A stretch of DNA of 38,754 nucleotides from Candidatus Nealsoniibacteriota bacterium (GTDB lineage Bacteria; Patescibacteriota; Minisyncoccia; Minisyncoccales; PWPS01): positions 1 to 38,754 of the forward strand of contig PWKK01000030.1 of assembly GCA_003560665.1 (NCBI GenBank). Reading direction: 5' to 3'. This document shows, in pieces, positions 33,182 to 33,982 of the stretch (positions are counted from its first letter, which is position 1; each line of letters opens with the position of its first letter). The notes below the pieces were generated by a model. The model was given only the letters and a program-made list of their open reading frames with translations. It was not told the DNA's origin and made no database searches. The position numbers were made by a program, and so were the translations under genes.

Positions 33182-33982
33182 TTATAGTAAAATAACAAAC
33201 AAGGCAAGAGCGATTCCCGACAAAGTGAGGATTAAAATACCGATTAAGTTTAAGATCATTGCAAATCGAATACTTCCCTTTGCGAGAGGATTTCTACTAA
33301 TTCCCTTTATACCCTCTTTCAGAGTTCTCGAGAAAGAGTAGAGACCGAAAACAAAGCTACCGGTGACAAAAAGTGCCGCCAGGAGGTATCGTAAAATTTG
33401 AGGAGCATCTCTTTCCATGGTCCGAATAATCCTTCCGACTGCTTCCCAAAAAGTTATTTCTTGCCACGGCTCTTCATCTTCAATGGTTGTTTCGCGCGGG
33501 TCAACGAAAACTTCAATCAATCCTTCTTCTCCGTCAAGCTCTTCCATCGCTCTTCCGATAACAAAACCGGGATAAAGCGCTTTTTGGCCTACTCCCGGCT
33601 TGTTTGAGGAGGTGATAAAATCTCCTTTCTCTACTTTTTCGCGGCTCCCGTCAACTTTTACAAGAGCAACTCCGGAGGTTACTATCGGTAGACTATTTTC
33701 AGAGTCACGACCGACAACAACTATCGGATTAAAGGCCACTACACCGAAAATATTGTTGTCGTAGGGAGAATTAGCCCTTCTCAACTCTCCTCCATCTTCG
33801 GAAATAATGTCACCTTCCGCTGCGTTTCTGTCAGCTACTTCCAGCTGAACGGCCGTATCGGGAAGAAAAAAAGTTTCTTGGGCAAAAAGATGCCCGCATC
33901 CGGCAAAAAGGAAAACGGAAGAAATAAAGATTAGAAGCATCTTTCGGGAAATTTTTTTGAAAAAAGTAACAAAAAATCTCAT
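33182..33982 (-). CDS. Fusion of signal sequence, peptidase_G2-like extracytoplasmic domain and c-subunit-like TM hairpin without the ion-binding carboxylate
   Basis: C-terminal [46 protein letters not shown] has the c-subunit RNP polar loop; no Asp/Glu in either TM helix; N-domain resembles the C-terminus of the 26374-27753 product. Confidence 0.75.
   Translation of the reverse strand: [266 protein letters not shown]

Follow-up and report, generated by a model that had tools for sequence, protein, structure and literature searches.

In a Candidatus Nealsoniibacteriota bacterium we find a gene module that we read, with moderate confidence, as an F-type rotary ATPase that is no longer coupled to ions and has been redirected to the cell surface. 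The computational picture is of a protein whose membrane hairpin descends from subunit c and has lost the ion-binding acid, which carries a secreted ectodomain, and which is encoded with motor, shaft and stator subunits and without subunit a. Such a complex probably cannot work as a normal ATP synthase, and ATP would instead be used to move parts on the cell surface. Rotary ATPases are textbook ion machines; if our reading is true, nature would here have converted an ATP synthase into a mechanical device of the cell surface. The module lies in a window (the whole stretch of DNA analysed) of 38,754 nucleotides from contig PWKK01000030.1.

The c-fusion protein and its membrane hairpin

The first gene of the module is an open reading frame of 266 codons with the C-terminus quoted in the initial annotation, in which the RNP motif occupies residues 230-232. 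Its parts are as follows.

33182..33982, minus strand: c-fusion protein, 266 aa, consisting of signal peptide, extracytoplasmic beta domain and acid-less c-subunit hairpin
33878..33982, minus strand: signal peptide (residues 1-35), recognized from the sequence, with cleavage expected near LFA/QE
33488..33856, minus strand: extracytoplasmic beta domain (residues 43-165) of the phage cement, preneck-appendage or head-fibre base type
33185..33406, minus strand: c-type hairpin (residues 193-266), with helices at 193-230 and 232-265
33287..33295, minus strand: polar loop R230-N231-P232
33233..33235, minus strand: codon of Leu250, at the position of the ion-binding Asp/Glu (P+18)

An AlphaFold2 monomer model built on 42 homologues (mean pLDDT 89.6) has, in order, an N-terminal signal helix (residues 2-28), the beta domain, a short helix, and two long helices that turn at the polar loop; the Ala-Gln junction at the end of the signal peptide recurs in orthologues. 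The proposal that the N-terminal domain lies outside the membrane agrees with the signal peptide, with the positively charged cytoplasmic loop and with the extracellular type of the fold. In structure comparisons the PDB matches of the beta domain are phage cement, head-fibre base and phi29 gp12 proteins, and it overlays viral models of tail-fibre and preneck-appendage proteins at about 2 Å. It thus shares its fold with these phage proteins and with Peptidase_G2-type fibre domains, but differs from them in being joined to a c-type membrane hairpin, and in a bacterium; no phage genes were recognized around the c-fusion gene. A Cupin_2 hit to the protein (Pfam, E 0.14) was dismissed as noise.

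Several lines of comparison indicate that the hairpin is descended from subunit c. Profile-profile alignment with ordinary CPR c subunits (hhalign) gives a probability of 96 and an E value of 3.6e-9, so that the relation to ATP-synt_C on which the initial annotation had staked its c-like assignment is present. The top five PDB matches of a seven-sequence profile are c subunits, as are nearly all of those of a 42-sequence profile (best E 7.7e-4), and the modelled hairpin overlays F-type c subunits in the PDB at 1.3-1.9 Å over 66-72 columns; the likeness between CPR c subunits and one of the fusions (L048) is visible by eye in aligned sequences. The c-fusion of the window itself has no PF00137 match in a Pfam search and a weak NCBIfam subunit-C match (E 0.0045), and in several relatives that carry other ectodomains in the same operon slot the hairpin scores above the curated PF00137 cut-off. 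Sequence profiles, the modelled hairpin and the Pfam results for relatives agree on subunit c. Among the features expected of ATP-synt_C (PF00137), the profile relationship and the two-helix hairpin with an RxP polar loop are present; the ion-binding membrane carboxylate is missing, with Leu250 in its place.

This replacement had been noted before and stands, since P+18 is Leu250. The accompanying statement that neither helix contains an acid holds for the membrane-embedded parts and fails for Glu223, where helix 1 reaches the cytoplasm; this position, near which a Glu is also found in ordinary CPR c subunits, is not the ion site. The loss is general. None of 71 distinct cement-domain fusions has an acid at P+18, where I, V, L, F, A, S or T is found (hydrophobic or small residues), nor has any of 10 other fusions (0/81 in total), and those acids that helix 2 does contain are few and close to the loop, with one exception at P+13. 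The polar loop, which in ordinary F-ATPases is the surface that meets gamma and epsilon, is by comparison strictly kept: R-N-P is invariant in the 71 cement-domain fusions. The first scan, of 41 loci, used the motif RNPLAK, so loop conservation there is by construction, and RNP(L/M)A is retained in all 30 loci found with a full-length profile in a search that did not use the motif. Degradation of the helix-1 GxGxGxG packing motif was likewise borne out, its glycines being replaced by bulky residues including a conserved Phe; a related subgroup of fusions keeps the motif. Because these glycines are replaced in the subgroup of the c-fusion, an ordinary ring is not assured.

The operon, its F1 subunits and its distribution

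The genes run in the order c-fusion, b, delta, alpha, gamma, beta and epsilon, on one strand with the c-fusion first; this is the standard atp order without subunit a and with c replaced by the fusion. Downstream of the c-fusion gene are the following.

32228..33151, minus strand: b-like peripheral stalk protein, 307 aa, with an N-terminal transmembrane segment and coiled coil; the assignment rests on position, architecture and conservation rather than on a family model
31734..32219, minus strand: delta/OSCP-like subunit, whose C-terminal part matches PF00213 (E 1.3e-5)
30272..31741, minus strand: alpha subunit, with the P-loop GDAKTGKT and the arginine finger present
29413..30252, minus strand: gamma subunit, full length (PF00231, E 5.8e-30)
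28025..29422, minus strand: beta subunit, with Walker A, catalytic Glu and Walker B intact
27758..28021, minus strand: epsilon subunit, 87 aa, the N-terminal beta-sandwich only, without the C-terminal helical domain

The same gene order occurs in nearly all loci with enough flanking sequence. All 36 alpha and all 33 beta subunits examined have their catalytic residues unaltered (Walker A, catalytic Glu, Walker B and arginine finger), and ATP hydrolysis is therefore expected. What marks an F-type enzyme is accordingly found in the alpha3beta3 catalytic residues, in the gamma/epsilon stalk and in the b/delta stalk, gamma, epsilon and delta being recognized by Pfam and b assigned by position and architecture only. 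Relative to the NCBIfam cut-offs for ordinary synthases, alpha, gamma, delta and epsilon fall below, and beta falls below by one bit. Comparison of two close relatives gives the fusion, alpha, beta and gamma dN/dS values of about 0.09-0.14, which indicates that these four are under purifying selection; for b and for the hairpin taken alone, synonymous sites are saturated, so that no usable value results. Very little of the b-like protein is extracytoplasmic, which leaves little there to hold a stator against load. Subunit a with its essential Arg was sought and no PF00119 match was found in the source genome or the operon, nor is there any generally conserved extra partner across the loci, whether a multi-transmembrane or a 12-transmembrane protein. 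Ion-coupled ATP synthesis by the complex is very unlikely, to judge from these sequences, because there is neither a subunit a nor a carboxylate.

The source genome (679 kb in 30 contigs, completeness 100) encodes no other c, no other a and no second alpha/beta pair. In two relatives, G016 and G033, the module is likewise the only such system, with no ordinary a or c and no second alpha/beta pair; a membrane pyrophosphatase is encoded in these two and not in the source genome. Most other carriers have an ordinary ATP synthase elsewhere (ordinary c in 30 of 41 genomes, ordinary a in 26 of 41), and the module is therefore usually an additional machine. Among 385 genomes sampled from the phylum, at least 63 have the full-length fusion, 63 being the count of full-length matches listed and hence a lower bound, and several genomes have two or three copies. 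Carriers include Nealsonbacteria, Daviesbacteria, Woesebacteria, Gottesmanbacteria, Curtissbacteria and Saccharibacteria, and the module is kept as a whole in Parcubacteria, Microgenomates and Saccharibacteria. The fusion is absent from all seven sampled relatives of the same genus; four of these have an alpha/beta-family pair that by its sizes (about 460 and 580 aa) and spacing fits a V/A-type ATPase, and one (G006) has a pair that fits the F-type.

In trees with ordinary CPR subunits the beta subunits of the module form one clade (SH-aLRT 99), and the alpha subunits fall into two groups, those of Saccharibacteria lying on a long branch and not grouping cleanly with the others. Two F-type operons with an ordinary acidic c (L131 and L044) have beta branches that adjoin the clade and are possible intermediates. 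We found no published description of an acid-less c-fusion module in the open-licence literature, and the CPR surveys consulted give ATP synthases only as lost or minimal (PMC10656485, PMC11738941). The module may explain some of the 'incomplete' ATP synthases in such surveys.

Exchangeable ectodomains and neighbouring surface proteins

A profile of the hairpin alone shows that acid-less c hairpins also form the C-terminus of unrelated secreted proteins, whose genes occupy the slot of the c-fusion ahead of (b-)delta-alpha-gamma-beta-epsilon. These alternative fusions are of 497-507 aa with NHL propellers, or of 664-820 aa with Big_1/Invasin_D3 domains. This exchange of ectodomains is the strongest argument that the hairpin would be a general rotor-type membrane unit carrying whatever surface domain is placed on it, and, together with the missing subunit a and the widespread conservation of the module, it extends the initial annotation.

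Two giant proteins also end in an acid-less c hairpin. That at L162:6532-12654 (minus strand) has at least 2040 aa, with NHL, Invasin_D3 and Big_1 domains and PF00137 at the cut-off, and lies in the same Saccharibacteria genome as a module with a fusion of ordinary size (L085); that at L193:7433-15202 (minus strand) has 2589 aa and NHL propellers. No F1 genes were seen beside either within the stretches fetched (19.5 kb for L193). In one ring, ten or more copies of an ectodomain of 600-2,600 aa would be packed very tightly, and this points to mixed rings or a small number of copies. At two loci (L163:3505-13103 and L164:3488-13096) a pair of c-fusion genes brackets one F1 module, so that mixed rings are possible, and between fusion and b stand three additional genes with no Pfam function, of about 270, 320 and 370 aa. 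Two tandem c-fusion genes are found at L084:2050-4037, on a contig without visible F1 genes. In six Woesebacteria loci (L060, L065, L068, L070, L071 and L073) a gene of about 560-580 aa is inserted between c-fusion and b, and reads by eye as a 2,3-BPG-independent phosphoglycerate mutase; the G1-ATPase of M. mobile is reported to incorporate PGK (PMC11864180).

Further surface proteins are encoded around the module in the window.

26374..27753, plus strand: convergent secreted fibre-like protein, 459 aa, with the beta domain of the c-fusion
34007..34312, minus strand: small transmembrane and coiled-coil protein directly upstream of the c-fusion, kept only in the nearest relatives
34318..36006, minus strand: secreted Ig-like protein with a C-terminal transmembrane segment, kept only in the nearest relatives

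The fibre-like protein has the only other copy of the c-fusion beta domain found in the source genome; its AlphaFold model (mean pLDDT 34.6) is not usable. In 20 of the 42 loci a strict test finds such a protein next to the module. Large fibre or collagen-type proteins adjoin it at L057:16073-20714, L071:4-3789, L056:16116-18801 and L076:16762-20792, and have N-terminal MerR helix-turn-helix or integrase SAM-like domains. The window also encodes, at 21884-24931 and 35906-36826 (minus strand), secreted proteins of one family, each with a C-terminal transmembrane segment; four members of this family flank the module in the window and in the nearest relatives.

Possible mechanism and relation to known rotary ATPases

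In the mechanism that we propose, alpha3beta3 would hydrolyse ATP, the c-fusion hairpins would form an oligomer, presumably a ring, whose conserved RNP loops meet gamma and epsilon, and b and delta would hold the torque as a stator, so that torque would cross the membrane to the ectodomains, as rotation or cranking, instead of to protons. That torque is made is argued by the retention of b and delta. The ectodomains are most likely adhesive or fibre-docking parts with a role in attachment, in surface movement or in host-cell contact. The module bears on how CPR cells attach to hosts. More speculatively, and with rather less confidence than we place in the uncoupled motor itself, these complexes may constitute a widespread class of rotary ATPase in which a c-derived ring is the drive plate and exchangeable adhesin or fibre domains on the outside of CPR cells are turned, or cranked, at the expense of ATP; the giant fusions would perhaps be arms of mixed rings, and the two-transmembrane X0 protein of mycoplasmas, judged by architecture, perhaps the same invention.

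The alternative that we take most seriously, though we consider it unlikely, is that F1 is only docked at the membrane, the hairpin being a static anchor or receptor tail, and that ATP hydrolysis regulates or reports on a surface complex without transmitted rotation. The lost helix-1 packing motif in the subgroup of the c-fusion would fit this, as would the scant extracytoplasmic part of the b-like anchorage, and both ring and rotation are themselves only inferred; however, b and delta, which are needed only against torque, are kept with gamma and epsilon across the clade, and so are all the catalytic residues. Slightly less probable still is that the complex supplies energy for exporting or assembling its own ectodomain or the fibre encoded next to it, in the way the F1-like ATPases FliI/SctN do for type III secretion. 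The frequent fibre-like, fibre or collagen-type neighbours and the beta domain common to the c-fusion and its fibre-like neighbour are what this would lead one to expect, but no export-gate or channel genes are conserved in the loci, the signal peptides point to the Sec route, and FliI-type systems, to our knowledge, have no c-type hairpin.

It is improbable that ions are still moved, through an unrecognized a-type protein or with the fusion as a minor member of an ordinary c ring. The ordinary c and a of many carriers would make mixed rings possible there, but the source genome, G016 and G033 have neither, the operons have no conserved multi-transmembrane partner, and no fusion has an acid at the ion site. 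Least probable of all, and by our estimate scarcely tenable, is a decaying ATP synthase on its way to loss: a is missing, epsilon is short and the divergent subunits score below curated cut-offs, and yet the whole module persists across three major groups with dN/dS of about 0.1 for alpha, beta, gamma and fusion, invariant catalytic residues and, in some genomes, several copies.

The module has in common with bacterial F1Fo its gene order, its intact catalytic residues and the subunits alpha, beta, gamma, epsilon, delta and b together with a c-type hairpin; it differs in having no a and no ion carboxylate, in the fusion of c to a signal peptide and ectodomain, in an epsilon without C-terminal helices and in subunits that score below the curated cut-offs. 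It resembles the N-type ATPases in forming, in many carriers, a second F-type operon beside another rotary ATPase. N-type rings, however, bind ions and work with a subunit a, and the gene content differs from that of the CPR module; membership of the N-type (alternate F1F0) group was rejected, alpha (376 of 750.5 bits) and beta (418 of 752 bits) being far below cut-off.

The nearest known concept is, by analogy, that of the mycoplasma Type 2/3 F1-like ATPases, namely the Type 3 'F1-like X0' ATPase (MSC_0618-0624), which works with MIB-MIP, and the Type 2 G1-ATPase of M. mobile gliding. Membership by sequence was rejected, and alpha and beta are not placed with MSC_0618/0619 or MMOB1660/1670, since the beta subunit of the window scores best on ordinary atpD and well below the cut-off of the Type 2/3 models; the M. 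mobile G1 beta is the weakest of its 58 PDB matches, ordinary F1 beta being closer. No mycoplasma X0 model matching the fusions was found, and NF045935, considered as a model of the two-transmembrane protein, is that of mycoplasma epsilon instead. The mycoplasma enzymes lack b and delta homologues and have a 12-transmembrane protein, and the CPR module is the opposite on both counts. They are nonetheless a precedent for powering surface machinery (PMC12994834, PMC11864180), and their X0 proteins MSC_0620, MMCAP2_0577 and MMOB1650, reported to be without known homologues, have a signal peptide, a large ectodomain and two C-terminal transmembrane helices with a short loop between (PMC3369863, PMC12994834). 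The module thus resembles them, by architecture only, in its signal peptide, ectodomain and two C-terminal helices, and further in being an extra F1-like alpha/beta/gamma/epsilon cluster of a reduced genome with no ordinary ion path or Fo, and it offers a way to probe the X0 sector of the mycoplasma F1-like ATPases, which is still unsolved.
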